The translations under genes were made by a program, and so were the position numbers. The notes below the pieces were generated by a model. It saw only the letters and a list, made by a program, of their open reading frames with translations, searched no databases and was not told the DNA's origin. A stretch of 64,000 bases of DNA from Bradyrhizobium sp. 200 (GTDB taxonomy: Bacteria; Pseudomonadota; Alphaproteobacteria; Rhizobiales; Xanthobacteraceae): NCBI RefSeq assembly GCF_023100945.1, contig NZ_CP064689.1, forward strand, positions 3,330,001-3,394,000, in the 5' to 3' direction. How positions within the stretch are numbered: position 1 is the stretch's first letter; each line of letters starts with the position of its first letter. Positions 1 to 29,113 of the stretch are shown here, piece after piece.

Positions 1-197
1 GCTACCGCGCAGTGCTTGATCTCTGGATCGATTCCGCAAAGACGATCGAGCGAACGGAACTATTTCGGTCGACAGGCGATCGTGACCGCGACGCGGCGGT
101 TGCAGCGGCGCTGCGCGGGGTGACGGTCAGCCGGCCGACGCCAGCAAACACGCCGCAGCCGGTCCGCGTTGTCATCGTCGTAAGATCGCTACAATGA
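1..197 (+). CDS. STN/TonB-C-like secreted protein, C-terminal part (5' end outside window)
   Basis: Only the last 64 or so codons are present; the frame is already open at base 3 and ends with TGA at 195-197. The residues closely match the C-terminal half of the complete protein at 14901-15581: both share a LxLWI segment, a TGD/NGD turn, an AAALRGV/AAALRGVS motif and a PQPxxxxIxxR ending. That paralogue has an STN domain followed by a TonB-C-like domain, so the missing 5' part of this gene probably encodes an STN domain. The stop overlaps the ATG of the following tonB-like gene (ATGA), which indicates translational coupling. The paralogy is visible in the sequence; the STN domain itself is inferred. 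Confidence 0.7.
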   Translation, partial: YRAVLDLWIDSAKTIERTELFRSTGDRDRDAAVAAALRGVTVSRPTPANTPQPVRVVIVVRSLQ

Positions 198-928: not shown

Positions 929-1098
929 CCAACTCTGGGTAAGGGAGTTGAATAGGTCTGTTGGTGAGATCACCGTTGATTACGCGAACTGGTGCCTGAT
1001 GCTCCCTCGTAGGTGGTATTTCTTCCCGTCATAAATGTGTAGTTCAGCGCCGGTACGACCTGCTGATCGTCGGGGGGCGAGCGGAACGATGGTAATGT

Positions 1099-1659: not shown

Positions 1660-1947
1660 CCGACGGGCGCTGAAACGCCGCAATCGATGCACGTCCTGGA
1701 CGAGCCGGGGAGGCATTGGACCATAAGCGGCGAGTAAATTTGAGTGACGCGTTGTTTCGTTGCGGTTTTTCTTCGGGATAGCCGCTGCCCAGTCGTCTAT
1801 CGAGTAGATGCCATGTAACGGCACCGCGGCGGCAAGCTGGATGGGAGGTTCCGAAGGAATGACGCGGGCCGTTGAAGCGAGGTCTGTTGCCGCCAGCGCA
1901 GGGGCGTGGATCGTCGCTTCCTGTTCAGTGAGCGTATCGTGGGGCAA
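1654..1947 (-). CDS. Small hypothetical protein, antisense-oriented between sigma and fecR
   Basis: A 97-residue open frame on the opposite strand fills most of the 423 bp gap between the sigma gene and fecR and overlaps the sigma stop by 6 bp. The C-terminal half has a composition that looks protein-like (GIYSIDDWAAAIPKK, then AAYGPMPPRL), while the N-terminal half is rich in Ala and Pro. I recognise no domain, membrane segment or signal peptide. It interrupts an otherwise co-directional block. It may be a real small gene, a remnant, or a chance frame in GC-rich DNA. Confidence 0.35.
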   Translation of the reverse strand: MPHDTLTEQEATIHAPALAATDLASTARVIPSEPPIQLAAAVPLHGIYSIDDWAAAIPKKNRNETTRHSNLLAAYGPMPPRLVQDVHRLRRFSARRS

Positions 1948-2082
1948 CCGATCGTCCGATCGTCGAAGCGCGCATCAAGGTGCTCGAAATTGACAGGAAT
2001 TGGCTATATATCGAGGTCGGACGGCATTGGCCCCATCAATTAAGCACATTGGCTTGCGAGCGCGGCAGATGGACGATAAATC

Positions 2083-3069
2083 GTGACCGCGGCGAGCGAT
2101 ACATCCGAACGCGATGCGCTCTTGGACGAGGCCCTCGACTGGGTGGTCCGGCTCAAAACGGGTGCGCCGACCAGAGCTGACATCGATGCGTTGCAGCGCT
2201 GGCGTCAGCAAAGTCCGGCCCACGAGGAGGCTTTCAAGAAGGCTGCGCGGCTCTTCCGCCATGCAGGTATTGCAGCGCGCGAACTGGACGATCGGCCCGA
2301 TGCCATAGGCGCGGTGCTGGCCCCGCAACGGCTGCCGTCCAGAATTATGGCCCGCCGCGCCTTTTTGGGCGGTGCGATCGCTGCGGCTTGCGCGGGCTAT
2401 GTGGTTGTCCGTCCGCCGCTTGGCCTCTGGCCGTCGCTGCAGGAGCTATCGGCGGATTATCGCACCGGCAAGGGCGAGCAGCGCAAGATCGCGGTCACAC
2501 CGGATGTATCGCTGGAGCTGAACACCCAGACCAGCATCGCATTGCGTTCAGCGTCCGATGAAACGCAGATCGAGTTGATTTCCGGCGAAGCCTCGGTGGC
2601 TGCGATGCGAACTTCGCCGAAGCCATTCGTCATGCTGGCTGCGAACGGACGCATCACCGCAAAACAGGCGGATTTCGTGGCGCGTTGCCTTGACGGCATG
2701 GTCCGGGTGACCTGTCTGAACGGAAGTGTGGACGTCGCCCAGGGCGGCCGCGTGGTGCAGCTTGGCCAGGCAGAGCAGGTCTCCTATTCGCCCGGCGGAA
2801 TAGAAGTCTCGGTCCCGGTCGATCCGGCGCAGGTGACGGCCTGGCAGAGCGGGCTATTGATTTTTCGCGACCAGACGCTTGCCGACGTGGTGGATGAGGT
2901 CAATCGCTATCGATCCGGCAAGATCATCATTACGAATGCGGATCTGAAGCAACGGGTCGTCAACGGCACGTTTCAGATCAACAAGCTCGGCGACTTCGTT
3001 CTCCAGGTTCAGCAATTGTTCGGCGCCCAGGCGCGCTCGCTCCCGGGCGGGGTCGTATTGCTCGGCTGA
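2083..3069 (+). CDS. FecR-family anti-sigma factor (tpsB side)
   Basis: A 328-residue FecR-type protein that should hold the upstream ECF sigma factor inactive and receive a periplasmic signal. Residues 12-65 form the cytoplasmic DUF4880-like part (ALDWVVRLKTG, then ALQRWRQQSPAHEEAF). The membrane segment at about 90-110 starts with a twin-arginine motif, RRAFLGG (R91, R92). The periplasmic part carries the family's PLGLWPSLxELSADYRT region, and the last 70 residues resemble an STN/DUF4974 fold. GTG is the only sensible start. The tpsB gene follows after 241 bp. The protein is closely paralogous to the FecR at 16168, including an identical ending LPGG-VVLLG/IVLLG pattern. Confidence 0.92.
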   Translation: MTAASDTSERDALLDEALDWVVRLKTGAPTRADIDALQRWRQQSPAHEEAFKKAARLFRHAGIAARELDDRPDAIGAVLAPQRLPSRIMARRAFLGGAIAAACAGYVVVRPPLGLWPSLQELSADYRTGKGEQRKIAVTPDVSLELNTQTSIALRSASDETQIELISGEASVAAMRTSPKPFVMLAANGRITAKQADFVARCLDGMVRVTCLNGSVDVAQGGRVVQLGQAEQVSYSPGGIEVSVPVDPAQVTAWQSGLLIFRDQTLADVVDEVNRYRSGKIIITNADLKQRVVNGTFQINKLGDFVLQVQQLFGAQARSLPGGVVLLG

Positions 3070-3167
3070 TCCACTGAGCTGCAGCTTGCAATCTCTATTT
3101 CGCTCGTCCGTTCATCTTGGTCGCATTGAGCTTGCGACCTGTCGCGAATCAATGCGCGCCAAAGCCG

Positions 3168-3199: not shown

Positions 3200-3310
3200 C
3201 CGCAAAGTTTTGCGGGTTAGCCATCGGCCAGTCGTCTTTAGAGCGAGGGGGCGTGATCGCGGCGTGCAGGCGCGGTCGCGATACTCGTTTGAGGAGGCGA
3301 GCGGGCATCC

Positions 3311-5059
3311 GTGCAAAGTTGTATTGATGAAGAGCTGCGCCGGCATATGTCGGCGGGAAGGGCGTTGTTTTGCCTGGCGGCAGGCGCGATGACCCTGGCA
3401 GGCGGGCTGGTCGCTGCCGATCCGGCTTGCGCGGCCAAGGCTGCGTCGTCCGGACGTGCGCCGGGTGCAACCAGTGCATCGTCATCGACGCTTGAGCAGG
3501 CTCCGCCGCAAAAGCCGGCTGCGGTCGCACAGCGTTTCGATATCGACGACTTTGCCGTTCAGGGCGCCGAAACGCTCCCGCAGATCGAAATCGAGGAAGC
3601 GATCTATCCGTTCCTCGGACCCAACAAGACCGCCGACGATGTCGAAAAGGCGCGGGCGGCGCTCGAGAAGGCCTATCACGACAAGGGCTATCAGACGGTC
3701 AGCGTCTCCGTTCCGCAGCAGAACGCGCTCTCCAGGATGATCACCCTCAAAGTGACCGAATTGAAGGTCGGGCGGCTTCGGGTCAAGAACTCGCGCTACT
3801 TCGACCTCGCCAAGATAACCAACAAGGCGGGCTCTCTTAAGGAGGGCACCGTCCCGAACTTCGGCGAAGTCACCAAGGACATCGTCGCACTGAACCAGTG
3901 GCCCGACCGGCGTGTGACGCCCGCGCTGCGGGCCGGCGTGACGCCGGGCACCGTCGATGTCGATCTGAATGTCGAAGACAAAGTGCCGGTGCATGCGAGC
4001 GTCGAGCTGAACAACCGCCAGTCTCCGAACACCACGGCGCTGCGCGTCAGCAGCACGGTGCATTACGACAACCTCTGGCAACTCGGCCACTCCCTGAGCT
4101 TCACCTACCAGGTGGCGCCGCAGCGTCCCGGCGACGCCGAAGTGTTTTCCGGCTCTTACCTTGCCCGGCTGCAGGACGTCGATTGGCTGAGCGTGCTGGT
4201 CTATGCGGTGAAATCGAGCAGCGATGTCGCGACGGTAGGCGGCACCAACGTGATCGGGCCTGGAGAGATTCTCGGCAGCCGCGCCGTGATAACCCTGCCG
4301 GCGCGAGAAAGCCTGTTCCACACTCTTTCGGTCGGCGTCGATTACAAGCACTTCGACCAGACCGTGAAGCTCGGTGGCGACGGATTTTCCTCGCCGGTCA
4401 CGTATTACCCGGTGGTTGCGAGTTACGGCGCGACGTTCCAAACCGAGAAATTTACGACGCAGCTCAACGCCGCGGTCACCTATAATCTGCGACCGTTGAG
4501 CGATGACTGGGTGGCGTTCGACAACAAGCGCTATTACGCCTCGCCGAGCTTCACCCACTTCAACGTCGACGTATCGCACACCCACGAATTGCCTGAGGGC
4601 TTCCAGCTCTACGGCAAGATCCAGGGGCAGGTTGCCGACGGGCCGTTGGTATCGAGCGAGCAGTTCAGCGCCGGCGGCCTCGATACCGTGCGCGGCTATT
4701 TGGAGTCCGAGACGCTTGGCGACAACGGCGTCGTCGGCAACCTCGAACTGCGCAGCCCCAACGTCGGCGATCTCTTGCAGAAGCAGATGACGGACGAAAC
4801 CGGCAAAGGCCAGGCCCGCTTCACCATCTTCAACGACTGGCGCTTCTTCGGGTTTGCCGATGCCGGCACGGTCACCGTCCTGCATCCGCTGCCGGACCAG
4901 CAATCGAAGTTCGACGTGTGGAGCTACGGCGTCGGCGCACGCTTCAAGATGTTCAACTATCTCAACGGCACGCTCGTCTATTCCGTGCCGATGGTGAGCC
5001 AAGCCTACACCGAGGCGCAAAATCCGCGCGTGAATTTTCGAATCTGGGGTGAATTCTGA
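3311..5059 (+). CDS. Two-partner secretion outer-membrane transporter TpsB (ShlB/FhaC family)
   Basis: A 582-residue protein that should secrete the giant TpsA exoprotein across the outer membrane. From the GTG start there is a signal region to about residue 42, a low-complexity stretch, a first POTRA domain at about 78-152 (FAVQGAETLPQIEIEEAI), a second at about 153-230, then a 16-strand-type barrel to the C-terminal Phe. The family's VRGY motif of the L6 loop is present at residues 460-463, following SAGGLDT. A GAGGAGG site at 3291-3297 precedes the GTG; an ATG at 3347 is an alternative start that still keeps a signal peptide. The stop overlaps the next gene by one base. Its TpsA lies 12 kb downstream, which is unusually far. 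Confidence 0.93.
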   Translation: MQSCIDEELRRHMSAGRALFCLAAGAMTLAGGLVAADPACAAKAASSGRAPGATSASSSTLEQAPPQKPAAVAQRFDIDDFAVQGAETLPQIEIEEAIYPFLGPNKTADDVEKARAALEKAYHDKGYQTVSVSVPQQNALSRMITLKVTELKVGRLRVKNSRYFDLAKITNKAGSLKEGTVPNFGEVTKDIVALNQWPDRRVTPALRAGVTPGTVDVDLNVEDKVPVHASVELNNRQSPNTTALRVSSTVHYDNLWQLGHSLSFTYQVAPQRPGDAEVFSGSYLARLQDVDWLSVLVYAVKSSSDVATVGGTNVIGPGEILGSRAVITLPARESLFHTLSVGVDYKHFDQTVKLGGDGFSSPVTYYPVVASYGATFQTEKFTTQLNAAVTYNLRPLSDDWVAFDNKRYYASPSFTHFNVDVSHTHELPEGFQLYGKIQGQVADGPLVSSEQFSAGGLDTVRGYLESETLGDNGVVGNLELRSPNVGDLLQKQMTDETGKGQARFTIFNDWRFFGFADAGTVTVLHPLPDQQSKFDVWSYGVGARFKMFNYLNGTLVYSVPMVSQAYTEAQNPRVNFRIWGEF

Positions 5060-7083
5060 TGATCAGGGGATGGGACCAACGAGGCTGCGCGGGTTGGCGG
5101 ACGGGCACGAAAATATTGGCGCGCCTGCTGCTCGCGCTCGCCGCAGTGCTGACGCTATCGCCGTCGCCGGCCAAAGCGTGGTGGAACGACGAATGGCAAT
5201 TGCGCAAGAAGATCACCATCGACGCCAGTGCGTCCGGCGCCAACATCACCGATCCGATCGGTACCGCGCCGGTTCTTGTTCGGCTGCATGTCGGGAATTT
5301 CCGTTTTAGCCAGGCCAAGGATGACGGCAGCGATCTGCGCTTCGTCGCCGGCGACGACAAGACGCCGCTAAAGCATCACATCGAGAAATACGACTCGCTG
5401 CTCGGCGAGGCCCTGGTCTGGGTCGCCGTGCCGAACCTGCAGCCCGGTGCTAAGGCCGACATCTGGCTTTACTCGGGCAATAAGAAAGCGGTCGCGACCA
5501 GCGACTCTAAAGGCACCTACGATCCCGATACGCAACTGGTCTATCATTTCAACGAGCGTGGGACGCCGGCACTGGACTCGTCCGTCTGGGCCAACAATGC
5601 GCAGACCGTCGGCCAGCCGGCGGACGGCTCCCTGATCGGAACGGGCCTGCGCCTGGATGGCCGCACGCTGTTGACTCTGCCGGCATCGCCATCGCTCGCC
5701 TTGAGCGACAACGCCGCGTTCACTTGGTCAGCCTGGATCAAGCCCAGCGCCATGCAACCCAACGCGGCCCTGTACAGCCGCCGCGATGGCGCCAACGGTC
5801 TCGTCATCGGACTGGATAACGGCATTCTCTTCGCCGAGGTCACCAATGCAGGGACCGTGCAGCGCAGCGCTGCCGGGGCACCGGTCGCGCCGGGCGGCTG
5901 GCATCATGTCGCTGTGGTGGCGAACAGCGGTCAGATCACACTCTATCTCGACGGCGGGCCTTACACGTCGCTCGGTGCGACGTTGCCGGCGCTCAACGCG
6001 ATTGCGCTGGTCGGGGGTGATACGGCGACATCAGGTGCCGCTGCGGCCGCTCCCGCGGCGGCGCCGTCCGCGGCCGAACAGACTCCAGCCCCGTCTGTGT
6101 CGGCTGCGGATGGCGGCACGGCGCCGGATGCCGCTGCCCCTGCGTCCGAGGCGGCGCCGGTCCCAGCTCCCGTCGCTGCGATGGCCGGCTTCGTCGGCGA
6201 CATCGACGAATTGCAGATCGCGAAGATTGCCCGCCCCGCCGGCTTCATCAAGTTTGCCGCGATCGGGCAGGGACCGGAGCAGGCCAAGCTCGTCGCTTTC
6301 AGTCTGGATGAAGAAACCGGAAGCTGGCTCTCGGGCTATTTCGCGGTGATCCTGAAATCGGTGACGCTCGACGGCTGGATCGTCATCGGCATCCTGGTGA
6401 TCATGGCCGCTGTCAGTTGGGTCGTGATGTACGATCGCGCCTCCTATCTGAACAAGCAGGCCAAGGCCAATGCTCACTTCATGAAGAGCTTTCGCGAGAT
6501 CGCGTCCGATCTCACGATGCTCGACAGTGGCGATCCGGAAGATATCGCAAGCCTGGGCGGCCGCATGAACGAGTCCGATGCCAAGATCATGCGAGCGTCG
6601 TCCTTGTACCGGATCTATCACCTCGGAGCCTCGGAAATCCGCCACCGCTTCGCCGGGAACGGCAAGCGCCTGCCGGTTCTCTCTGCCACATCGATCGCGG
6701 CGATCCGCGCGGCGCTCGACAGCGGTTATGTCAAGGAGATCCAGCGGCTCAACCGGTTGATGGTGGTGTTGACCATCGCGATTTCCGGTGGGCCCTTCCT
6801 CGGACTGCTCGGCACCGTGGTCGGCGTCATGATCACGTTTGCAGCCATCGCGGCGAGCGGAGACGTCAATGTGAACGCCATCGCGCCAGGTATAGCGGCG
6901 GCCCTGGTCGCAACCGTCGCTGGTCTTGGCGTCGCGATCCCGGCGTTGTTCGGCTACAACTACCTGATCTCCCGCATCAAGGACCTGACCAATGACATGC
7001 AGGTCTTCATCGACGAGTTCGTGACGAAGATGGCCGAGTTCTACTCGGCCGACCGGATCGAACACCGCGTCGCCGCGGAGTAA
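5059..7083 (+). CDS. DUF2341 / LamG-like / ExbB (MotA-TolQ-ExbB) fusion protein
   Basis: A 674-residue fusion. Residues 1-40 form a signal sequence ending in KAWWNDEW. A DUF2341 domain follows to about 170, then a concanavalin/LamG-like domain at about 175-400 (YHFNERG, FTWSAWIKPS, GGWHHVAVV, GDIDELQIAK). A 50-residue Ala/Pro-rich loop at 324-373 interrupts the LamG domain. The C-terminal part is an ExbB proton channel with membrane segments at about 438-459, 568-598 and 609-635, including GLLGTVVGVMITF. This is the stator-like subunit of a Ton motor carrying large periplasmic, probably glycan-binding, domains. The start overlaps the tpsB stop (TGATG) and exbD follows after 5 bp, so the three are probably co-translated. 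Confidence 0.92.
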   Translation: MIRGWDQRGCAGWRTGTKILARLLLALAAVLTLSPSPAKAWWNDEWQLRKKITIDASASGANITDPIGTAPVLVRLHVGNFRFSQAKDDGSDLRFVAGDDKTPLKHHIEKYDSLLGEALVWVAVPNLQPGAKADIWLYSGNKKAVATSDSKGTYDPDTQLVYHFNERGTPALDSSVWANNAQTVGQPADGSLIGTGLRLDGRTLLTLPASPSLALSDNAAFTWSAWIKPSAMQPNAALYSRRDGANGLVIGLDNGILFAEVTNAGTVQRSAAGAPVAPGGWHHVAVVANSGQITLYLDGGPYTSLGATLPALNAIALVGGDTATSGAAAAAPAAAPSAAEQTPAPSVSAADGGTAPDAAAPASEAAPVPAPVAAMAGFVGDIDELQIAKIARPAGFIKFAAIGQGPEQAKLVAFSLDEETGSWLSGYFAVILKSVTLDGWIVIGILVIMAAVSWVVMYDRASYLNKQAKANAHFMKSFREIASDLTMLDSGDPEDIASLGGRMNESDAKIMRASSLYRIYHLGASEIRHRFAGNGKRLPVLSATSIAAIRAALDSGYVKEIQRLNRLMVVLTIAISGGPFLGLLGTVVGVMITFAAIAASGDVNVNAIAPGIAAALVATVAGLGVAIPALFGYNYLISRIKDLTNDMQVFIDEFVTKMAEFYSADRIEHRVAAE

Positions 7084-7088
7084 CGGCG

Positions 7089-7493
7089 ATGCAGCTCCAG
7101 GACAGCGGCAAACCCTACGACGACATCAACATCACGCCGATGTTGGATCTCGCTTACGTGTTGCTGGTGATTTTCATCATCATGACGACGGCGACCGTGC
7201 AGGGCCAGAAGGTCAATCTGCCGAAGGCATCGGCGGCGCCGAGCCTTGCGACGCAGACGACCAAGGCGATCACGGTCGCCAATGACGGCAAGATCTTTCT
7301 CGACACCATACCGGTCACGCTGCCCGAGCTCGAACAGCGCCTGGTGCAGCAGAAGGCGTTGACGCCGGAATTTCCGGTGGTGCTGCGTGGCGATGCGCAG
7401 GCCCAGTACCAGAGCGTTATGGACGTGCTCGATCTCCTGGGGCGCGTGGGCCTGACGCAGGTTGGTCTCGCCACCAAGCCGCTTGTGAAGTGA
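7089..7493 (+). CDS. exbD: ExbD/TolR-family biopolymer transport protein
   Basis: A 134-residue ExbD. After a short cytoplasmic N-terminus (DDINITPMLD) comes a single membrane helix at about residues 19-36 with the family's essential Asp at position 20. A periplasmic domain follows with the usual QKVNLPKA entry and a TQVGLATKP ending. It should form the Ton motor with the ExbB-domain protein directly upstream and the TonB at 8032. The stop overlaps the GTG of the next gene. Confidence 0.95.
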   Translation: MQLQDSGKPYDDINITPMLDLAYVLLVIFIIMTTATVQGQKVNLPKASAAPSLATQTTKAITVANDGKIFLDTIPVTLPELEQRLVQQKALTPEFPVVLRGDAQAQYQSVMDVLDLLGRVGLTQVGLATKPLVK

Positions 7494-8035
7494 GCGATCT
7501 GATGCACATCGCCATGAACATGCGTGACGCCGCCAGGAATGGCATCAGATGGCTGTGGTCCTGGCTGCACGATGCGTCATGGACGATTGGCCGGTATACC
7601 AACGAAAATCAGGTCTGTTCGGACGAGGTGATCTCGCGGGCGGCCACCGCCAAGAACGATCTGCAACCTGTCTCGCCGGTCGCCGGGCGCGATCATGCCG
7701 CGCAAAGCGGCATCCTGCTGCAGTTTCCGGTTCGCGGCGAGGCGCTGCTGGTCAAGCTCGCGGACCTCCTGCGAAGCCGCATTGCCGATCGTGGGCTTGA
7801 GCGCGATCCGCTGCTCCTGCTGATCTCGCGATGCCCGGGATCGCGACTGTCGATCGATCGGTCCGCCTATGTCGAATTCCTGGCTGACCGATGCGTGTAT
7901 CACGTGGCGATCGAAGCGCAGCCCGATACGAGGGTTACCGTGGAAACGGCGGATTTCGACACCGTCGTGAAATTCGTCGTGCAGTACGTAGCTGGACGCC
8001 TCTCAGAGAAGGTGCTCCTGGAGGCCGCGTCATGA
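7490..8035 (+). CDS. Hypothetical protein in the exbD-tonB operon
   Basis: A 181-residue protein that I do not recognise. It begins with a GTG overlapping the exbD stop; an ATG at 7502 is an alternative. The N-terminal 30 residues contain an amphipathic Trp-rich stretch (WLWSWLHDASW). The remainder is soluble, with a predicted alpha/beta composition (LLQFPVRGEALLVKLADLL, LLLLISRCPGSRLSIDRSAYVEF). No signal peptide or clear membrane helix is visible. Its stop overlaps the start of tonB, so it is translated between the exbD and tonB products and may be an accessory of that complex. Confidence 0.8.
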   Translation: MSDLMHIAMNMRDAARNGIRWLWSWLHDASWTIGRYTNENQVCSDEVISRAATAKNDLQPVSPVAGRDHAAQSGILLQFPVRGEALLVKLADLLRSRIADRGLERDPLLLLISRCPGSRLSIDRSAYVEFLADRCVYHVAIEAQPDTRVTVETADFDTVVKFVVQYVAGRLSEKVLLEAAS

Positions 8036-8796
8036 ACGTTCCAATGAACGGTCAGGATTCCTCCTCAGCGCGCAATGCAAAAGGGCGCAGCTCTACCGCA
8101 TATCGTCCGGTCGGCAGACACACTGCGTTGCTTCGTTACGGCGCAACGCTTTTGGGCATGATGGGATTCGTCGGTGTCGCGGTGTTCTTCCTCCGCGGTG
8201 ACGATCTGCCGCCACCGCGGCTGGTGCGCGAGCTGACCGTCGTCAACATCGTGCCGCCACCTCCGCCTCCGCCGCCGCCACCTCAGCCGATGCCCGAGCA
8301 GAAGATGATCGAGCAGCCGAAGATGGCCGAGCCGGAATTCAAGGAGGAGAAGCCGGTCGACAAGCCCAAGGACGAGCCGGTCAAGGACGCCAAGAACGAT
8401 GAACCGCCGGGGCCGTTGTCGCTCGATGCGAAGGCGGTCGGTCCTGGCGATCTCTTCAATCTCGGCAGCAAGGTGGGTGGAAATCCCTACGGCGGCGGCG
8501 GCGGTGGCGGCGGCAGCAGATGGGGGTGGTACAGCACGATCGTGACGGACCAGGCTACGGCTGCGCTGCGCGCTAATCCAAAGACCCGGAATATGGCGAC
8601 GCAAATCCAGGTCCGGTTGTGGGCCGACGCGTCGGGACGCGTCACCCGGGTAATGATCTCGCCGTCGACCGGCGATGCTGAATTGGACGCCATTATCCGC
8701 GACGAAGTGCTCGGCAGGCTGATGCTGCGCGAGCCGCCGCCCAAAGACATGCCGATGCCGGTGGTCACGCGAGTGACCGCGCGACGGCCAAGCTGA
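8032..8796 (+). CDS. tonB: TonB energy transducer (second copy)
   Basis: A 254-residue TonB. It has a cytoplasmic N-terminus, a membrane anchor at about 34-55, and an uninterrupted ten-proline run at 75-84. A Pro/Glu/Lys linker follows (PVDKPKDEPVKD), then a Gly-rich stretch, and a C-terminal TonB domain from about 160 (IQVRLWADASGRVTRVMIS). ATG at 8032 overlaps the upstream stop (ATGA) and is chosen over an in-frame GTG-type extension that would run through the upstream gene. It sits directly behind exbB, exbD and a small gene, so it is the dedicated transducer of this motor. The outer-membrane partner is not obvious because no TonB-dependent receptor lies nearby. Confidence 0.92.
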   Translation: MNVPMNGQDSSSARNAKGRSSTAYRPVGRHTALLRYGATLLGMMGFVGVAVFFLRGDDLPPPRLVRELTVVNIVPPPPPPPPPPQPMPEQKMIEQPKMAEPEFKEEKPVDKPKDEPVKDAKNDEPPGPLSLDAKAVGPGDLFNLGSKVGGNPYGGGGGGGGSRWGWYSTIVTDQATAALRANPKTRNMATQIQVRLWADASGRVTRVMISPSTGDAELDAIIRDEVLGRLMLREPPPKDMPMPVVTRVTARRPS

Positions 8797-17187: not shown

Positions 17188-17241
17188 TCGGGGCGTGGCA
17201 AGTCGATATGCGAAATAGGGAAAGTAAGTGAGCGGGCTGAA

Positions 17242-17274
17242 TCTGCAAAAGGTCAGGATTTTTTTCGGTGCCGG
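17242..17274 (+). promoter_or_regulatory. Candidate ECF-dependent promoter motif upstream of tpsA
   Basis: GCAAAAGGTC followed by a seven-T run and CGG lies 118 bp before the ATG preferred for tpsA. It matches the element at 3168-3199 before tpsB. If it is a promoter, translation from the GTG at 17228 is excluded, which supports the ATG at 17363. The match is short and untested. Confidence 0.35.
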
Positions 17275-17362
17275 CCTTCGAGAGGGATCTAAACAGAAGT
17301 CGCGGCACCAGAACGGTGATTGCGATTGCTGCCATCCCTTCGTCCCCGCGCGAGAGTCCCTG

Positions 17363-20300: not shown

Positions 20301-23300
20301 TCGATGTGGGCGCCGTGCTCGATGTCTCGGGCGGCGGTTGGCTGAAGAATCGGAGCGGCAAGCTGCAGACGCAAGCCGGCGACGGCGGCACGATCCAACT
20401 CAACACGATCGATATGGCTGAATTCGCCAAGGCTGACCTGCGCGGCTATTCGGCCGGCTCCGGCGGCTCCCTGGCGTTTTCGACGACCGGGAATCTCCAG
20501 ATCGGGGGCGATGTGCCGGCGGCGGCCGACACCTTCCGTCTGCCCGAGACGCTGTTCACCGAGCGCGGTTTCAGTTCCCTGCAGATCGGGGCGGGCGGCA
20601 GCATTATCGTTCCGGCAGGGGTCACAGTCTCTCAACTCGCACGCAGTGTGGACCTGACGGACGCCGCCGCCCGCTTCGGCTCGGGCACGAAGCTCGCCGA
20701 CATGAAGCTCGCCGACATGGGGCCGCTCGTGGTCCTGCCACTCCCGCAGCGCGTAAATCTCAAGCCGACATCGCTCTCGCTCGCCGGCAACAATATTTCG
20801 ATCGGTGCCGGGGCCATTGTCCAGACCGATATCGGCGGCCGCATCACTTTGGCGGCGTCGACCAACGTTGGCGGCGCGACCGAGATCTCGGGCAGGCTTC
20901 AGGCGCTCGCTGGGACGATCAACGTTTCAGCAGGAACCGTTGCGGTCACCGCTACCGGCGCACTCGTCGCAAATGGCGTGCCGGTTATCCAGACGGGTGC
21001 CTTCGGACTGCGCGAGGGTGTCGTGCTCGGCGGCGGCTCGGTGACGCTCACATCAACAACTCTCGCGTTGCAAGCGGGCTCGCTGATAGATGTTTCCGGC
21101 GCCAGCGGCGAGATCGACCTACCGCTTTCCGGCGCGCTCGGATCGCATTCCACCGCGACGGTCGCGCTCGCCAGCAATGGCGGCAGCATCTCGGTGTCAG
21201 GGCAGGGCCTGATGGAGGGAACATGGCGCGGCCATGCCGGAGGTAGCGGCGCACGCGGCGGTGCCCTAACGCTGTCCTCGGGAACGCTGTCGGCGTCCTT
21301 GATTGTGTCCGACACGGCGGCGGCGCAGCCTGGATTGGTCGTGCGTCCGTCACTTCTCCAATCTGCGGGCTTCGCTGACCTCACTCTCTCTTCCTCCTCG
21401 ACAATACGATTGGAGAGCGTGGACCTCACGGTCGGAGGCTCGATCTCGATCGTCGGTGCGCTGGTCAACGGCAACGGCACCAGTTCACGCTTGTCGGCTC
21501 CATACATTTCGTGGCGCGGTGTGTCATCGAGCGGCCCGACGCGCGCGGGCACGCTAACGCTCGCCGCCTCGCTCATCGACATCAACAGCGCATCCGTTCG
21601 CGGCTTCGAACAGTCGGTGCTGGAGGCATCCGACATCCGGCTCACGCCGCTCCGGCTCGGCCTCGGGGCATCGCTCGACGTCGACGGCACGTTGGTGTTG
21701 AAGGCCGGGCAGGTCTATCCGACGTCGCAGACCAGCGCGACGATCAGAGCCTCCGACAAGATCGTTGTCCAGCAGAACGGCGAGGCCGGTCTCGCCTTGT
21801 CGGTCGGCGGCTCCTTGACACTCGAGGCGCCGGTGATCGAGCAGGGCGGCACATTGCGCGCTCCCTTGGGTCAGATCACACTGAAGGCCAGCCAGCGGCT
21901 GACGCTTGGCTCCGGCAGCGTCACCTCGGTGAGCGGCGACGGTCTCATCCTGCCCTACGGCAATCTTAGCAATAACGAGAGCTGGACCATCGTGACGTCG
22001 GAACTGGGGCAGCCGGTGACCATTGCCAGCTTGCCGGAAAAGCGTATCACGCTCGATGCCCCGAGTGTCGATCTCGCAGCCGGATCGGTGGTCGACATAC
22101 GCGGCGGCGGCGATCTGTATGCGTGGGAGCACGTGCCCGGGCCGGGCGGCTCACACAACGTGCTGTCGAGGCCGGGCCTCTATGCAATTGTACCGGCGCT
22201 GAACAATACAATCGGCGTGCCGGATGCGACGCTGCGCAGTGGCGATCGTATCTGGCTCGATGGCGGCAGTGGGCTGGCGGCGGGCTGGTACACGCTGTTG
22301 CCGGCACATTACGCGCTGCGGCCGGGCGCTTTCGCCATCCAGGTCGTTGGCGGCTCGCAAGGCGCCGCAGTGTCGAAATCCACGATTCTGACCGATGGCA
22401 GCAGGATCGTCTCCGGCTATCGCGCCAACAGTCTCGACGGCAGCCGCGACCAGTTATTGTCCTCATGGCGTGTGATGTCGGGCGAGGTGCTTCGCAAGTA
22501 CAGCGAATATAACGAGGCTTTCGCCAGCACGTTCTTCGCCTCCGACGCCTTCAAGCTGACTCAGTATCGGCTCACCGGCCACAATATCGTCACCCCGCGC
22601 CTGCCGATCGATGGCGGCTCGGTGGTGTTCAAGGCGACGCAAGATTTGATCTTGAACGGCCAGCTACGCTCGCAGGCCGCAGCCGGCGGGCGCGGCGGCC
22701 TTGTCGATATTGCCGCACAGAAGATCGCGATTCTGGGCACAGGGCAGGACGCCGGCGCGCTGCGTGCCGACGGCTATCTGGTTATCGATGCGGTCAATCT
22801 GTCCGGCTTTGGCGCGGGCAGCCTGCTCGTCGGCGGCGTCCGCAGCGGTGACACCGGCGGCCTGCGAGTGGATGTGACAGCCGACAATATTATTGTGCGC
22901 AATGGCAGCAGCTCGGCGTTGACGGGATCGGAAATCATCCTGGCCGCAAGCGAGATGATCGACGTCGGCGCCGGCAGCGTCATCGCCGCGCGCGGCGAGG
23001 CGCCGACCGGCGCGGGCGATCTCGTAATGGCGCCGCAGGTGCCGCAATCCATCAACAATAATGGCACGCCCAACAATTCGAGCGATGACTTCGTGGTGCC
23101 GGCACGGGACTGGGGCGCCCTGATCCGCGTCTCCAATGGCGATGCCGTGCGGGTCCGCCGCACCAACGTCGACACTACCGTCGGCGGGCAGGTCACCATC
23201 GGCGCCGGCGCCGTGATCGACGGCGGCAAGGCTTTGCTGATCGATGCCACCAGGAGCACCGCCGTCACCCAGGCGACACTGTCGGGCGCGGCGCTGTCGC

Positions 23301-26300
23301 TGGCTTCGGGCCGCATCGGATTCGGCGGCGGCAGCGGCTTGGTGATCGATGCCGCAGCACTGGCCGCGCTCGCCAGCACGCAGCATCTGACCTTGCGCAG
23401 CTATTCCAGCATCGACTTCCATCGCGGCATCGATTTGTCCGGCCTCAACGCGGTGACGTTCGATGCGGCAGTGCTGGCTGGCTACGGCAGCAATCCGATT
23501 ACCGTCGTCGGCAACCGGCTCGTCCTGGAGAATACGGCTGCCGCGTTCAGCGAGCCGGCCGGAGCCGGTCACAGTACCCTGAGTCTCACGGCAGCGGAAT
23601 TGGCCTTTGGCGAGGGTGCGAAAGCGCTGCGCGGCTTCGACACTGTCATGCTGACAGGCACGACGCGCATCGTTGGCGAGGGCAACGGTCGGCTCGATGC
23701 GGGAGCAGCGACGCTGACCTTCTCGACGCCGGTGCTCACTGGCCGCGGCGGCGCCAGTCAATCTGTGACGACGACCGGTGCGATCGCGGTTGCGGCGAGC
23801 GGTTCCACCGGGCCGCGCGATCTCGACAGCCTCGGCGCGCGCTGGAGCTTGACCGGCCGCTCCGTCGCCTTTGACGGTCGCATTGATGCGCTTGGCGGCG
23901 CGGTGGACCTTGCCTCCACCAATGGTGACGTCATTCTCGCGGGGGGCTCGCTTATCGATGTCGGCGGTTTCGGCAAGCAATTCTTCGATGTCGCTGAATA
24001 TGCCGATGCCGGGCGCATTTCGCTGAGCGCGGTCGGTGGTTCGGTGCTGCTCAATGCGGGCGCGACGCTCGATCTCGGCTCGGCGCGCGACGCAGACGGG
24101 CGTGCGGTTGGCGGTGGGGCGGGTACGCTCGCGCTCGCATCGGACGGCAGCCAGGTGGTTCTGGATGGCACGATCAAGGCAACGGCCGCCGCCGGCCAGC
24201 GCGGCGCGTCTTTCTCGCTCGACATAGCCACGTTGCCGAATTTTGCCGCGCTCAGTCAGCGCCTGAACGAGTCAGGCTTCTCTAAATCACGCGCCTTCCG
24301 CGTGCGCTCCGGCGACGTGACCGTCGATGGCACCACCCTGGCCGAGGAGTTCTCGCTTTCCGCCGACCAGGGCATTGTCACTGTTGCCGGCACGATCGAC
24401 GCGCGTGCGCGCTATGGGGGCGTGATCGCGATCTACGGCGGCCAGGGCCTCGTTATGACAAGCGCCGCGCTGCGGGCCGGCGCGACCGATACGGTGGATC
24501 ATCTTGGCTCCGGCCGGGTGACGCTCGGCATTTCCGGCGGAACACTGAATATCCAGGGCGGTTTGATCGACGTCGCGGGCGGCGAGGGTGGCAAGGTCAC
24601 CTTGCGCGCGCCGGTGATCGAGCAGCCGGGCGCCGACACCGTCAACGTCTCCTTCACAGGCGCGATCGCTGGCGCGCGCGAGATCGTACTCGAGGGCTAC
24701 AAGCGCTTCGATCTCGCTCAGTTCGCGGGCAATTCCAACTATGTCGGTGTCACCATCAACGGCAGCGGTCAGGCCGAGCTTGATCTTGCCGCCACGGCCA
24801 CGGGCAAGCTGAACGTCCTGGCGGACTACGGCGCCGGCACGCTGGTGGAGTTCGTGCGCGACTTCGACATCTCGGCTGCCTACGGCGCACTCAGCGGCTT
24901 GGCGGGGCAGGCCAATTTCCATGCCCGCGCTGGCATGGAATTGAATCACACCGGCGACATCGTGTTGAAGTCGAACTGGAACCTGGGTGCGGGCGTTGTC
25001 GACCAAGCTGGCGCGATCGCTGCTGGCGCGATGGCCATCGATCCGATCCTCAACAAGCCGTACGTGGTGGCAGGCCGCCAGGGCGATCTGTTGGCCAATC
25101 ACACCACGATGATCTACCGCACCGGCGGCAGCATCTTCGGCGAACCGGGCGTGCTGACTTTGCGCGCCGGCGGCAATCTCGTCCTCAATGGCAGCATCAG
25201 CGACGGTTTCTTCAATTTCGCCGATCCGCTCGATGCCGACTACGTGGCGAAGGCCAATTCCTACATTGCCGACTACAAGCTGCTGCTCAACGGCGGCTTC
25301 AACAGCGGCGGCGGCACCACGGCCCTAACAGGTTGGAGCGCTTACACCAGCACGACAGCTTTGCCGACCCGCTATCTGGGTTTGAGCTTCGGTTCGACAC
25401 AGACCACTTTTATCCCGACTGTCTTGCAGGATATTCGCGCCTCGTCGCTGCACGTGCCCTATAGCGCCGCTGCCAATTCACCGGTTGCCCAGGGAACGAT
25501 GACGGGCGGGGCGGGAGACGCCGAGAAGTACGCGGACCTGTTCCCGGGCGTTAGCCAGGGCGGCGGTCAGACGGTTGCGCCGGCCTCGTGGTCCTACACA
25601 CTGGTCGCCGGCGCGACGGCACCCGATCAGGCTGCCGATCCTCTGCAGCGCATGGCCGGCACGTCCGGCAGCATCCTGCTGCAGGAACAGCCGAGCTTTA
25701 CCTACACAGCGAATCCCGCCCAGCAGACTCGTAGCTCGGTGGTGATCGATCTCAATACCGGCTTCAGCACCTCGTCGGCGCCGAATACGAACTCGGGCAC
25801 AACCACTCCGGAAAACTGGTTGACCCCGATCACGAGCTATAGCGGGGTAAACGACAATGCGACTGCGGTCGTCGCGGTCGGCAGGCTCGATGCGTTCCCA
25901 GCGCGCGCGCTGTTTGACCAGCTCTTCGCCGAGTTTATCGCCGAGAAATCACTGGTGCGGAATTCGACGGACCCGGCGAAGGGCTACAAGATCATCGAAT
26001 CTTCGTCGAGCGGCTACAACTTCGTCATGTCGGTGGCGAACTTCAAGTTATTCTATAATGAGAAGATCGTTCCCAATCTGACCGCCATCCTCGCCACGTA
26101 CACGCTGCCGACGCCGCCTGTCCCGCCGGTCCAGATGACCGCCAGCGCTGCCACCATGGTGCGCACAGGAACGGGCGACATCAACATAGCGGCAAGCGGC
26201 GATATCCAATTGAAGGGCGGCGCGTCGATCTACACCGCCGGCCGACGCGATCTTGCGGTCCTCAACGATTTCACGACCGCGCCGGCAAGCGCTGCCTATG

Positions 26301-29113
26301 GCGTGGGCGGAGGCCATCTGCGCATTGCGCTCGATGGCAACATCGATGTTACCCTGCCGACGGATCGCTCGCAGATGCAGCACTACACCGAGTGGCTGAA
26401 GCGGCAGGGAGCGGTCGATACGCCCTCCTATCTGTTCACGCCGGTTTGGCAGAGTGGCAGACCGGATCGTCCCGCGGAACAGAGCTCCTGGTGGATCGAT
26501 TACACCAATTTCCAGCGCGGTGTCGGCGCCCTCGGCGGCGGTAATGTGGGCATCAGCGCCGGCGGAGATCTCAACAACCTGACGGTTGCGGTGCCGACCA
26601 ACGGCCGCGTGCGCGGTGGACGCACCGCCACCGAACAGAAGATCCTCGAGCTGCGCAACGGTGGCGCCATGACGGTGGAGGCCGGCGGCGCTGTGCGCGC
26701 CGGCTACTATTACATCGGGCGCGGTGCCGGCACGATCGAGGCCGGCGAATTCGCGGTCGGACGCGAAGTCAAGGTGACGAGCGGCGCGCAGGTGACGACC
26801 TATCCGATCGCACCGATCGTCTCGCTCGGCGATGCCACGCTGGACGTGCGCACCGCCGGTGATTTGCGGCTGCAGACGTTCCTCGATCCGCTGATGGTCG
26901 GCAGGGGCGAGACCTACGAATTCAGCTTCATGAGCGGTCAGACCGACCGCACGGCGCTCAGTCTCACCTCGACCGGCGGCGAAGTCACTCTGGTGGGCCA
27001 GACAACCTATCTCTCGAAGGACGCGGATTCTACCAGCTCTGCAGCTCTGGCCACCTTGAACGTCTTCGCCGGCAACATCTATCCGTCGAAGCTGCGCATC
27101 GCTGCGTTGAACGGCTCGGTGATCAACGCGGCGCAGTACAACACAACGACGGGCTCGGTGCCGACGCTTTACACGCTGCCGGGCAGCAGCCCGGAACTGC
27201 GGATTATCGCCGCGGACGACGTTCTTGTTGGCTCGATCCTCATGAGCCGCGCCACGCCCGCGATGATCCCTTCGCCGTTCGAGCCGGTTGCCGGAAATGT
27301 CCTCGTTCGCGTCAACCTCAGCGGGATGCATGGCGTTTTGACGAATCCCATCGGAGGGGCGCCTTCCACATCACACGCTCTGCACCTCTATAATCTGGGC
27401 AATCCGGCGCATCTGCCGAACGAGAACGACTACGAACCCAGCCGCATCTATGCCTTAAATGGCTCGATCATCGGCACCACCTATCCCTCGGGCGTCTCGA
27501 TCGTTACCGCCGGCGTCATGGCGAACGAGCAGACCTGGTTCCGCGCCGGCACCGACATCCGCAACATCAATTATAATTTGCGCAACATCCATCCAACCGA
27601 CGTATCGCTCGTCGAGGCCGGTAACGACATCGTCGGGGGGCCGATCTATGGTTCGATTTACGTGCAAGGGCCCGGTGCCGTTGCGGTGAGCGCCGGCCGC
27701 GACGTCTATGCGCCCGAATTGCATATCATGACGGTTGGCAATCGCGCCTACGATACGAACAACCGGCCAGTCAATTTCTCGCAGATCTTCGGTCTGCCAG
27801 ATGAGAGCGCCGCCATCACTGTGATGGCGGGTTTGAAAGGCAACCAGCCGTCCTATGACGCGTTTCTGGCGGCCTATCTCGATCCGTCGAACGTCGCGGC
27901 GATGCCGGACTATCTGAAGACAACCCTGGCGGACGGCACGATCGTGCCAATCTACTTCACCGACGCTTACGAACTCCGCAAGTCCGGACAGTCGCATAAA
28001 ATCCGCTCTGGTCTTGTCTCCTTCGTGAAAGACGTGACGGGCGAGACCCTGACGCTGCAGGATGCCTGGGCCAGGTTCCAGAGCCTGCCAATGCTGACCC
28101 GTGAACGCTTCGCACGGCAGGTCTACATGCAGGAATTGCGCGAAGCCGGCAAGGATCAAAGCGAGGCGGGCACCGACGGTCTGCCGCGCAACGGCGGTTA
28201 CAATCGCGGTTACACGGCGATCCAGACGTTGTTCCCCGGCAATGACTGGAAGGGTGATGTTGCGATCGGCAACGCCCTGTTCCGCACCATGGCGGGTGGC
28301 AATGTTGAAGTGCTCACCCCCGGCGGTGGCTTGCAGGTGGCGGCGTTGGGCAAGAACGCCCCGTCGGGTTACGGCCTGGTGACGTTGGGCTATGGCGACA
28401 TCAATATCTTCGCCCGTAACAATGTCGTTGTGAACCGCTCGCGCATTCTCACCTTTGGCGGTGGCGACGAGATCATCTGGTCAACGGTGGGTGATATCGA
28501 CGCCGGCCGCGGCGCCAAGACCGCCCGCGTGCCGTCGGCGCCTGAGGTCCAGACGGATATCGACGCGGTGACGCGCATTCTGGAGAAGGCCGACATTTCC
28601 GGCAGTGGCATCGGCACCATCGTTGGCTTCACCGGCGTGGAGGAGGGCGACGTCCATCTGATCGCGCCGCAGGGCACAGTCAATGCCGGCGACGCCGGCG
28701 TGCGGGTTAGCGGCAATCTCAATATTGCGGCCCTCTTCGTGCTGAATGCGAACAATTTCCAGGTCTCAGGTGAAGTCAAAGGTTTGCCGGCGAAAGAGAG
28801 TTCGGCGTCTCCCTTGAAGCTCGAGGGCGGCGACACCAGCCAGAGGGCGGCTACCGACGCGGCGAAGGATGTAACGCAATCCGGTGCAGGCCAGCAGCCC
28901 TCCGTCATCATCGTCGAGGTGCTCGGCTTCGGCGGCGGCGGTGGCGACGCTCCGGTCAATCAAGACGAGCAGCAGGAGCGGCGAGGCGGTGTGAATGAGC
29001 AAGGGACTCAAAATCCGGACAGCGCCTACCAGGTTTTAGGCGCGGGCCAAATGACGGCGGAAGAGGCCAGGCAGGTGATAGCCGAGCGCCGTCGTGTCTC
29101 CGGACGGCGATGA
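17363..29113 (+). CDS. Giant two-partner secretion exoprotein TpsA (filamentous haemagglutinin family, DUF3739)
   Basis: A 3,916-residue secreted adhesin-like protein. From the ATG at 17363 there is a signal peptide to about residue 36 and a Gln/Ala-rich coiled segment at 45-100. The haemagglutination-activity (TPS) domain lies at about 120-250, with the NQNGIIFG motif starting at residue 207. Thousands of residues of Gly/Ala/Ser/Thr-rich beta-helix repeats follow. A C-terminal DUF3739-type region at about 3632-3809 contains SRILTFGGGDEIIWS, GDIDAGRGAKTA and APQGTVNAGDAGV. The tail is Gln/Gly-rich with a GGGGG run. An upstream in-frame GTG at 17228 would add 45 residues of atypical, Cys-rich sequence. 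The gene is uninterrupted over 11.7 kb, so it is under selection. Export is expected through the TpsB at 3311. Confidence 0.93.
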   Translation: MPHNPSSARTRLFLHRALLASVSMAALLASPQACARPLGGNTPMPSQATQSASQDASRAAQQAANSLKRATQSIQAMQAAQQAARNLARTAPSTVQNGLRSGGLVVMPGATPGTTDGGAGLWQGANLPTEVQSGGRTKVTVRQNEQKAILTWKEFNVSRETDLYFDQRAGGADAKNWIALNRVTNPGAAPSQILGSIKAEGQVYVINQNGIIFGGASQINVNTLVASSLSLSNQQFLAGINTSIVVSNGLAGYMHLPQFGDYNPNLPDTTKSADPANPVGQPAPFMPANAPGDVVVKAGAEIAAASGGKVMLFAPKVINSGQVSAQDGQVIMAAGEQIYLRTNISTQSDVPAAVRGLDVAVTGLMPWLFNYDHLRGALSGLPLNNPNNPPLYSESPYGQSLRDIILPLMEARAAAVGYQVVNNGIVEANHGNITVMARGIVQNGLLSASTALNNRDGSIRLLAYSNGMMASSGSTDPAFLYWQTGSLHLMPGSVTSAMPDLSDASEIELSALSTRYKPGRVELRGNLIDIQSQANVIVPAGTISVVASSAAQLADEPVSGETPVRDGSRIHIGEEAYLSVAGLKDIAIAMDRNFVEAELRINELRDSVLYRDSWLRGQKIVVDRRESGTFTDGPMAGVSWGGAAGSWVGTPLADVSAWIGVGKTDLGELSTVGGSIFISSSGSIVTRTGSILDVSGGSVRYADGWVKTTKLLGADGRVYDIGDARPDQAYVAFAGGFTRSHDRWGITETWTSRLGKTGARYERGYTEGRDAGSIQLYAAEGVVLEGSYWGGVVVGERQAAAAKYAKAGSLTFGGKDDSDRLWLLDKLIITGNPVMLPKDFTATTALDASWYSPPPNASYLPERTTYLDPGVLAASELGKIELYVSDDFTLTQGTTLNLTPRSTFSVLANSVDSYRQNFRIDGTIRTAGGTVNLLHAESVKFGTTGAIDVSGDWVNELTNGMAALAPQVDGGTITLMNAQFDVGAVLDVSGGGWLKNRSGKLQTQAGDGGTIQLNTIDMAEFAKADLRGYSAGSGGSLAFSTTGNLQIGGDVPAAADTFRLPETLFTERGFSSLQIGAGGSIIVPAGVTVSQLARSVDLTDAAARFGSGTKLADMKLADMGPLVVLPLPQRVNLKPTSLSLAGNNISIGAGAIVQTDIGGRITLAASTNVGGATEISGRLQALAGTINVSAGTVAVTATGALVANGVPVIQTGAFGLREGVVLGGGSVTLTSTTLALQAGSLIDVSGASGEIDLPLSGALGSHSTATVALASNGGSISVSGQGLMEGTWRGHAGGSGARGGALTLSSGTLSASLIVSDTAAAQPGLVVRPSLLQSAGFADLTLSSSSTIRLESVDLTVGGSISIVGALVNGNGTSSRLSAPYISWRGVSSSGPTRAGTLTLAASLIDINSASVRGFEQSVLEASDIRLTPLRLGLGASLDVDGTLVLKAGQVYPTSQTSATIRASDKIVVQQNGEAGLALSVGGSLTLEAPVIEQGGTLRAPLGQITLKASQRLTLGSGSVTSVSGDGLILPYGNLSNNESWTIVTSELGQPVTIASLPEKRITLDAPSVDLAAGSVVDIRGGGDLYAWEHVPGPGGSHNVLSRPGLYAIVPALNNTIGVPDATLRSGDRIWLDGGSGLAAGWYTLLPAHYALRPGAFAIQVVGGSQGAAVSKSTILTDGSRIVSGYRANSLDGSRDQLLSSWRVMSGEVLRKYSEYNEAFASTFFASDAFKLTQYRLTGHNIVTPRLPIDGGSVVFKATQDLILNGQLRSQAAAGGRGGLVDIAAQKIAILGTGQDAGALRADGYLVIDAVNLSGFGAGSLLVGGVRSGDTGGLRVDVTADNIIVRNGSSSALTGSEIILAASEMIDVGAGSVIAARGEAPTGAGDLVMAPQVPQSINNNGTPNNSSDDFVVPARDWGALIRVSNGDAVRVRRTNVDTTVGGQVTIGAGAVIDGGKALLIDATRSTAVTQATLSGAALSLASGRIGFGGGSGLVIDAAALAALASTQHLTLRSYSSIDFHRGIDLSGLNAVTFDAAVLAGYGSNPITVVGNRLVLENTAAAFSEPAGAGHSTLSLTAAELAFGEGAKALRGFDTVMLTGTTRIVGEGNGRLDAGAATLTFSTPVLTGRGGASQSVTTTGAIAVAASGSTGPRDLDSLGARWSLTGRSVAFDGRIDALGGAVDLASTNGDVILAGGSLIDVGGFGKQFFDVAEYADAGRISLSAVGGSVLLNAGATLDLGSARDADGRAVGGGAGTLALASDGSQVVLDGTIKATAAAGQRGASFSLDIATLPNFAALSQRLNESGFSKSRAFRVRSGDVTVDGTTLAEEFSLSADQGIVTVAGTIDARARYGGVIAIYGGQGLVMTSAALRAGATDTVDHLGSGRVTLGISGGTLNIQGGLIDVAGGEGGKVTLRAPVIEQPGADTVNVSFTGAIAGAREIVLEGYKRFDLAQFAGNSNYVGVTINGSGQAELDLAATATGKLNVLADYGAGTLVEFVRDFDISAAYGALSGLAGQANFHARAGMELNHTGDIVLKSNWNLGAGVVDQAGAIAAGAMAIDPILNKPYVVAGRQGDLLANHTTMIYRTGGSIFGEPGVLTLRAGGNLVLNGSISDGFFNFADPLDADYVAKANSYIADYKLLLNGGFNSGGGTTALTGWSAYTSTTALPTRYLGLSFGSTQTTFIPTVLQDIRASSLHVPYSAAANSPVAQGTMTGGAGDAEKYADLFPGVSQGGGQTVAPASWSYTLVAGATAPDQAADPLQRMAGTSGSILLQEQPSFTYTANPAQQTRSSVVIDLNTGFSTSSAPNTNSGTTTPENWLTPITSYSGVNDNATAVVAVGRLDAFPARALFDQLFAEFIAEKSLVRNSTDPAKGYKIIESSSSGYNFVMSVANFKLFYNEKIVPNLTAILATYTLPTPPVPPVQMTASAATMVRTGTGDINIAASGDIQLKGGASIYTAGRRDLAVLNDFTTAPASAAYGVGGGHLRIALDGNIDVTLPTDRSQMQHYTEWLKRQGAVDTPSYLFTPVWQSGRPDRPAEQSSWWIDYTNFQRGVGALGGGNVGISAGGDLNNLTVAVPTNGRVRGGRTATEQKILELRNGGAMTVEAGGAVRAGYYYIGRGAGTIEAGEFAVGREVKVTSGAQVTTYPIAPIVSLGDATLDVRTAGDLRLQTFLDPLMVGRGETYEFSFMSGQTDRTALSLTSTGGEVTLVGQTTYLSKDADSTSSAALATLNVFAGNIYPSKLRIAALNGSVINAAQYNTTTGSVPTLYTLPGSSPELRIIAADDVLVGSILMSRATPAMIPSPFEPVAGNVLVRVNLSGMHGVLTNPIGGAPSTSHALHLYNLGNPAHLPNENDYEPSRIYALNGSIIGTTYPSGVSIVTAGVMANEQTWFRAGTDIRNINYNLRNIHPTDVSLVEAGNDIVGGPIYGSIYVQGPGAVAVSAGRDVYAPELHIMTVGNRAYDTNNRPVNFSQIFGLPDESAAITVMAGLKGNQPSYDAFLAAYLDPSNVAAMPDYLKTTLADGTIVPIYFTDAYELRKSGQSHKIRSGLVSFVKDVTGETLTLQDAWARFQSLPMLTRERFARQVYMQELREAGKDQSEAGTDGLPRNGGYNRGYTAIQTLFPGNDWKGDVAIGNALFRTMAGGNVEVLTPGGGLQVAALGKNAPSGYGLVTLGYGDINIFARNNVVVNRSRILTFGGGDEIIWSTVGDIDAGRGAKTARVPSAPEVQTDIDAVTRILEKADISGSGIGTIVGFTGVEEGDVHLIAPQGTVNAGDAGVRVSGNLNIAALFVLNANNFQVSGEVKGLPAKESSASPLKLEGGDTSQRAATDAAKDVTQSGAGQQPSVIIVEVLGFGGGGGDAPVNQDEQQERRGGVNEQGTQNPDSAYQVLGAGQMTAEEARQVIAERRRVSGRR

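Follow-up and report, generated by a model that had tools for sequence, protein, structure and literature searches.

Textbooks present type V secretion as a process that runs without an energy source. What, then, would a proton-driven Ton motor do inside a two-partner secretion (TPS) locus? The question is raised by a block of genes in Bradyrhizobium sp. 200, which lies in a 64,000-nucleotide stretch of contig NZ_CP064689.1 (positions 3,330,001 to 3,394,000 of the forward strand; hereafter the window, to which coordinates refer unless a locus is named). The whole block is on the plus strand, from about 650 bases left of the window start to base 29113, and its genes were typed by Pfam and NCBIfam profile matches. 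The parts of a TPS pair are present as TpsB (3311-5059, PdtB-like; POTRA_2 and ShlB matches), with POTRA and an Omp85-type barrel, and as TpsA (17228-29113, PdtA-like), with a TPS domain (7.4e-19) and a C-terminal DUF3739 (8.3e-32). Those of a Ton motor comprise the channel domain of an ExbB with an N-terminal DUF2341 and a predicted lectin-like LamG domain (5059-7083; MotA_ExbB 1.4e-27, DUF2341 5.9e-18, Laminin_G_3 6e-17, and a structural model), ExbD (7089-7493; 1.6e-29), whose transmembrane Asp is kept and is conserved in at least 95% of 40 alignment rows, and the C-terminal domain of TonB. The TonB nearest to ExbD, TonB2 (8032-8796), is TonB4-like with a proline-rich spacer, has no Pfam match and matches TIGR01352 weakly (19.5 bits against a cut-off of 27.1). 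A Porin_5 outer-membrane protein, PA0696-like by place, follows it (8851-10692; PF16930, E 3.8e-216).

We are nearly certain that this is a PUMA3/Pdt-type two-partner secretion locus. The notion that the combination is a new kind of system was rejected, as it is that of PUMA3/Pdt, known in Pseudomonas aeruginosa since 2009. For that species Llamas et al. 2009 describe vreAIR, the TPS pair PA0690/PA0692, exbB2, exbD2, a tonB homologue and PA0696-PA0699, and they report the same association in P. fluorescens Pf5 and Pf01, P. entomophila, B. vietnamiensis, R. palustris and Janthinobacterium (PMC2729926). Their account thus covers P. aeruginosa and six further strains or species and leaves the role of the motor open; a 2020 paper terms exbB2-exbD2-tonB4 a still uncharacterised putative TonB system (PMC7035377), and among the literature matches listed no title or abstract opening was on the motor's role. 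What we add is the strictness of the link in two samples, the observation that the motor is more constant than the signalling protein VreA, and the observation that a single such TpsB may share its genome with a large number of cargo modules. The best overall explanation of the locus, to which we give about an even chance, is a PUMA3/Pdt system whose motor acts at the outer-membrane TpsA step under the control of its signalling cassettes.

The window TpsB was sought in whole genomes with E values up to 1e-15, scoring at most three to four candidates per genome and counting its own genome. Matches were found in 6 of 289 class genomes, 30 of 296 family genomes and 33 of 398 genomes of the phylum sample. 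The neighbourhoods of all 67 other TpsB rows were then scored with the window proteins and profiles built from them. In 42 loci (41 genomes) TpsB was close to that of the window (phmmer E <1e-75), and in 25 control loci (24 genomes) it was more distant (E >1e-49); the cut at 1e-75 is our own split, placed in a gap from 2e-80 to 6e-49, and the tree agrees with it, as the 43 motor-linked TpsBs, the window's included, form one clade with support 100/99, several control rows being long branches.

Within the 42 clade loci, assigning each reading frame to its best family alone, we found ExbB in 41, ExbD and TonB in 39 each, Porin_5 in 40 and a coiled-coil gene in 37, together with PpiC in 31, YbjN in 26, a lytic transglycosylase (SLT) in 25 (three weak), and a sigma factor and a FecR gene in 29 each. 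VreA was assigned in 22, one of which (L106) is a receptor-length frame, leaving 21. None of these eleven genes was found in any of the 25 control loci even when every match was counted, although 10 of these stretches span less than 19 kb. Two clade loci, L098 and L099, are cut by the stretch, and further sequence gave the order TpsB-TpsA-ExbB-ExbD-TonB-Porin_5, the one seen in genomes G904 and G598. One clade genome, G823, has its motor genes unlinked from TpsB-Porin_5: TpsB, Porin_5 and the coiled-coil gene stand together (L107) and ExbB-ExbD-TonB lies on another contig (L250).

The converse search, with full-length DUF2341-ExbB, covered the same samples. In the family sample the same 30 of 296 genomes hold a clade TpsB and a full-length DUF2341-ExbB. 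In the phylum sample 13 of 398 hold the TpsB and 14 the ExbB, these being the same 13 plus G838, in which a 3,770-base contig begins inside ExbB and continues with ExbD, TonB and Porin_5. Counting the window's own genome, DUF2341-ExbB occurs in 42 of 42 clade genomes. A second, more distant full-length DUF2341-ExbB was seen in one of them (G402:C30:32838-34565; E 5.9e-140), on a different contig from the clade TpsB. A separate scan of named loci with a TpsB alignment yielded at least 567 relatives, and among the best 80 that were kept (78 Pseudomonas and 2 filed as Pantoea) ExbB and ExbD follow TpsB in all 80; TonB, Porin_5 and the coiled-coil gene are each found in 78 (contig ends account for both losses), YbjN in 77 and PpiC in 76.

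The constant core is TpsB, DUF2341-LamG-ExbB, ExbD, TonB and Porin_5, usually also with the coiled-coil gene, PpiC and YbjN. The TpsB-ExbB pair is patchy, since it occurs in just 12 of the 47 family genera sampled; where it is found, both members are found. Kinship among the genomes makes p values meaningless here. The same order recurs across Pseudomonadota, with seven families represented in the phylum sample, so the arrangement in the window is not due to chance, and that the association is merely one lineage's gene order is ruled out by those seven families together with all 80 kept named loci. A reading of the window made from the sequence alone had tied the motor to this TPS and proposed looking for the conserved order across genomes, allowing that TpsB/TpsA homologues might regularly occur without the Ton and FecR genes. 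The conserved order was found, and TpsB/TpsA regularly lacking Ton genes was not seen for this clade. The signalling part of that proposal fared less well: the motor was always present, but no full-length VreA was detected in 10 of 42 genomes and FecR was missing from 13 of 42 stretches.

Is the motor then a partner of secretion or of signalling? VreA of P. aeruginosa has an STN and TolA/TonB-like build (PMC2729926), and in the block too VreA combines STN with a TonB/TolA-like domain, has no barrel and lies next to genes for an extracytoplasmic function (ECF) sigma factor and a FecR-like anti-sigma factor. Among the block genes there is no Pfam match to a FecA-type TonB-dependent receptor (barrel plus plug). 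One possibility, which we regard as very unlikely, is that the motor serves cell-surface signalling, with TonB moving or sensing VreA so that VreR frees VreI. The TonB-like part of VreA would fit such a role, as would the presence of a TonB of its own (TonB1) inside cassette 1, and a genome-wide comparison detected full-length VreA (better than 1e-30) in 32 of 42 motor genomes but in 0 of 24 other-TpsB genomes, so that in the sample VreA occurs only with this kind of TPS. Against this, no full-length VreA was detected at the 1e-30 cut in the other 10 of the 42 motor genomes (G557, G332, G362, G316, G469, G402, G823, G169, G904 and G598); the cut was set after the list was seen, scoring was limited to 40 candidates in each genome, and among these ten, rows are listed for G332, G316 and G169 only, where the best VreA match is in a receptor-length frame. 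VreA also lies in the fetched stretch of just 1 of the best 80 of at least 567 named loci, a second match (L169) being a receptor-length frame, and deletion of vreA is reported to have left the pdtA and phdA promoters unchanged under phosphate starvation (PMC4971064). The motor is thus a more constant partner than VreA. Because it persists in 10 of 42 genomes without detected VreA, its link is to secretion and not to VreA signalling, and these genomes speak against a motor that exists only for that purpose.

Our proposal, which we hold at slightly less than even confidence, is that the motor acts at the TpsA step. Proton flow through ExbB-ExbD would move TonB, and TonB would act at the outer membrane, by way of TpsB or the Porin_5 protein, on the export, assembly or holding of the giant DUF3739 TpsA. 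Each VreA-sigma-FecR cassette might switch on its adjoining transcription unit, cassette 1 the tpsB-motor operon and cassette 2 the tpsA gene. Gene content and order, the single clade of motor-linked TpsBs, the joint occurrence of TpsB and ExbB in the samples and the persistence of the motor where full-length VreA was not detected are observed; where the motor acts, what it does there and which sigma factor serves which promoter are what we infer. In line with a role at TpsA, the C-terminus of the window TpsA had no match in any of the 25 control stretches, although a TPS-domain profile does match in 17 of them. The kept Asp of ExbD also favours the proposal.

Several observations weigh against this proposal. 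The accepted view is that type V secretion works without a gradient, and TpsA and autotransporter passengers enter liposomes without external energy, as cited in a review (PMC5422565). A TonB box was not seen in the window type of TpsB, where the stretch before POTRA1 is unconserved. A P. aeruginosa mutant in PA0695, the tonB homologue, is described as being as virulent as the wild type in zebrafish embryos (PMC2729926). The contrast in TpsA C-termini is also less than complete, as a TpsA_C profile made from entire frames weakly matches one control (L109, 5e-10), and of the 17 TpsA frames in the controls 5 run off the stretch while 12 end inside it. Finally, G823 keeps Porin_5 next to TpsB but has its motor elsewhere, and in most loci the motor adjoins Porin_5, so it could serve Porin_5 instead.

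The strongest rival is capture and uptake. Surface TpsA might bind a nutrient, perhaps a glycan or a phosphorus compound, whose import through Porin_5 the Ton motor drives, much as HxuA cooperates with the TonB-dependent receptor HxuC for haem. We consider this a somewhat unlikely explanation. HxuABC of Haemophilus influenzae resembles the window in placing TPS beside a TonB-dependent process, but it is described as a three-gene operon with a TonB-dependent receptor (PMC5422565). Envelope remodelling is less probable again. Here the motor, transglycosylase, PpiC and coiled-coil protein would make openings in the wall or reshape it to let very large exoproteins through or allow them to be anchored, TpsB itself being unpowered, and both the location of SLT and PpiC inside the block and the lectin-like domain borne by ExbB would suit such a function. 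Against this reading, none of the best 80 of at least 567 named loci has SLT in its stretch, 17 of 42 clade loci lack it there too, and PpiC is missing in 11 and YbjN in 16 of the 42, these absences being upper bounds as some stretches are cut. More widely, in all 42 genomes the clade TpsB was accompanied by a motor of its own, which makes the rule of unpowered type V secretion open to test in one defined branch.

The number of exoproteins that one such system might serve differs greatly among genomes. DUF3739 occurs in 42 of 42 motor genomes, with 1 to 20 matches each and more than one in 18 of 42; the highest counts are 20 (G538), 17 (G486), 9 (G477), 9 (G341) and 7 (G376), with some matches in G477 and G717 being halves of one domain. 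We found a single clade TpsB per genome in the 30 family genomes, scoring at most three to four candidates in each, and POTRA_2 proteins of every kind add up to 3 in G538 and to 4 in G486. In these two genomes we saw modules of about 14 kb, some in tandem, that consist of VreA, sigma, FecR and a giant TpsA (L231-L245 in G486, L246-L248 in G538). All 18 such cargo loci (15 of 17 in G486 and 3 of 20 in G538) read VreA-sigma-FecR-TpsA and none has a TpsB or motor match; they were picked for a VreA 13-15 kb before DUF3739 and thus test only what lies between, and the G538 assembly is 94% complete with 8% contamination. All cargo TpsA proteins of such genomes would then use the one clade TpsB. By extension, though we think it unlikely, there may be a proton-powered branch of TPS in which one TpsB-Ton motor hub serves many giant DUF3739 exoproteins. 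Each exoprotein would have its own VreA as a TonB-like periplasmic adaptor, whose STN end would report the state of the hub for that cargo to its anti-sigma factor, and DUF3739 would be the handle of the motor. The window's own genome (9.49 Mb, one contig) has one DUF3739, one TPS-domain and five ExbD matches, and TpsA is its sole match to TPS or DUF3739 at E 0.001.

The full order of the block is vreA1, tonB1, vreI1, vreR1, tpsB, the exbB fusion, exbD, a small unknown gene, tonB2, porin_5, the coiled-coil gene, ppiC, ybjN, a gene with a TonB-like end, slt, another small unknown gene, vreA2, vreI2, vreR2 and tpsA. As the sequence-only reading had stated, two STN/sigma/FecR cassettes enclose the genes from tpsB to slt, but the STN gene of the first is VreA1, which reaches only to window base 197 (1-197; full gene L002:11352-12197, start outside the window). 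The frame at 194-928 that had been taken for the STN protein is instead TonB1 (TonB_C E 1.7e-14; tonB_Cterm 1.9e-16), all other listed genes being confirmed on one strand. The remainder of cassette 1 consists of the ECF sigma factor VreI1 (1099-1659; Sigma70_r4_2 6.4e-12) and the FecR-type anti-sigma factor VreR1 (2083-3069; FecR 1.1e-13, DUF4880 4e-13). Cassette 2 consists of VreA2 (14901-15581), VreI2 (15602-16168; Sigma70_r4_2 1.7e-10) and VreR2 (16168-17187; FecR 2.4e-13). Both VreAs have an STN and a TonB-like C-terminus and align with each other and with 19 relatives. STN matches are below the Pfam cut-off of 28.4 bits in VreA1 (9.1e-06, 25.8 bits) as in VreA2 (2e-05, 24.7 bits), and TonB_2 is above its cut-off in VreA1 (4.8e-05). 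A TpsA of about 3,900 residues at the end of the block was also borne out: the frame has 3,961 codons, and translation suggests a start at ATG 17363 and a protein of about 3,916 residues.

Between the motor and cassette 2 the other genes encode a coiled-coil protein with a signal-like N-terminus, PA0697-like by place (10695-11291), a PpiC-type peptidyl-prolyl isomerase, PA0699-like (11288-12340; Rotamase 8.9e-16), a YbjN-like, PA0698-like protein (12358-12879; YbjN 2.7e-08), a protein with a predicted TonB-like C-terminal domain (12885-13448), the SLT lytic transglycosylase (13452-14264; SLT 3.1e-20) and a small protein without a Pfam match that recurs in relatives (14277-14729). Between exbD and tonB2 lies another small protein without a Pfam match (7490-8035), which as a query found matches in only some loci of the same family. 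Five block proteins seem to have TonB-like C-termini, namely VreA1, VreA2, TonB1, TonB2 and the 12885-13448 product, the assignment resting on alignment for VreA2 and on profile comparison only for 12885-13448. The latter has no Pfam match, and by hhalign its C-terminus scored 98.1% with TonB2, 97.3% with VreA and 6.4% with TonB1, compared with at most 1.0% in all eight control pairs. TonB1 and TonB2 profiles scored 95.8% with each other, TonB2 alone being below the NCBIfam cut-off, and the TonB1 profile has matches in 20 of the 42 clade loci but in none of the 80 named ones. AlphaFold models are middling (mean pLDDT 66.9 for TpsB and 65.9 for ExbB), and we therefore drew no interface from them.

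Relative to P. aeruginosa PUMA3, with the layout vreAIR, pdtA, phdA-pdtB-exbB2-exbD2-tonB4-PA0696..PA0700, the window shares the TPS pair, ExbB, ExbD, TonB, the putative porin, YbjN, PpiC and VreA/VreI/VreR as described in three papers (PMC2729926, PMC7035377, PMC4971064). It differs in having two cassettes in one block, the extra TonB1, the further TonB-like protein and SLT, in the position of tpsA at the end and in the lack of a type II secretion gene among the block Pfam matches; PpiC also comes before YbjN, opposite to the order in Pseudomonas. P. aeruginosa is absent from the best 80 of at least 567 named loci, and its genes were compared via papers rather than sequences, the PUMA3 order having been checked by sequence in other Pseudomonas species. 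In R. palustris and Janthinobacterium the PUMA3 cluster is reported to be repeated four times and, as in the window, one cassette stands before tpsB-exbBD and others before tpsA (PMC2729926), whereas the window genome has a single DUF3739 match. Classical TPS systems (FhaC/FhaB, CdiB/CdiA) share the TpsB fold and the TPS domain with the window, but the other TpsB stretches have motor genes in 0 of 25 cases while the window TpsB has a motor.

A 2016 paper reports that two target promoters need PhoB and the sigma factor under phosphate starvation (PMC4971064). In the window, the 423-bp gap between vreI1 and vreR1 (1660-2082) has no long open frame and includes a promoter-like stretch (1765-1804, plus strand) resembling one before tpsB (3204-3243, plus strand). 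Both are weak candidates for ECF-type promoters, the second possibly that of the tpsB-motor operon. They have 27 of 40 bases in common, compared with a mean of 22.3 and a maximum of 24 in 30 base shuffles. A search pattern derived from these two stretches themselves found 2 sites with up to three mismatches where 2.1 were expected, both of them found with 0 mismatches. In stretches of relatives, CAGTCGTCT was upstream of tpsB in 5 of 42, of vreR in 3 of 46 and of tpsA in 0 of 18, counts that rule out a promoter motif common to the upstream regions of vreR1 and tpsB as a general feature.

Downstream of the block, a frame encoding 199 residues (29110-29709) overlaps the tpsA stop and appears remnant-like, with a weak Helicase_C match below the cut-off (8.5e-04). 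Further on, an unrelated region (37485-47675) contains three DHDPS-family genes and genes for a CoA-transferase III, an acyl-CoA dehydrogenase, a solute-binding protein and a permease.
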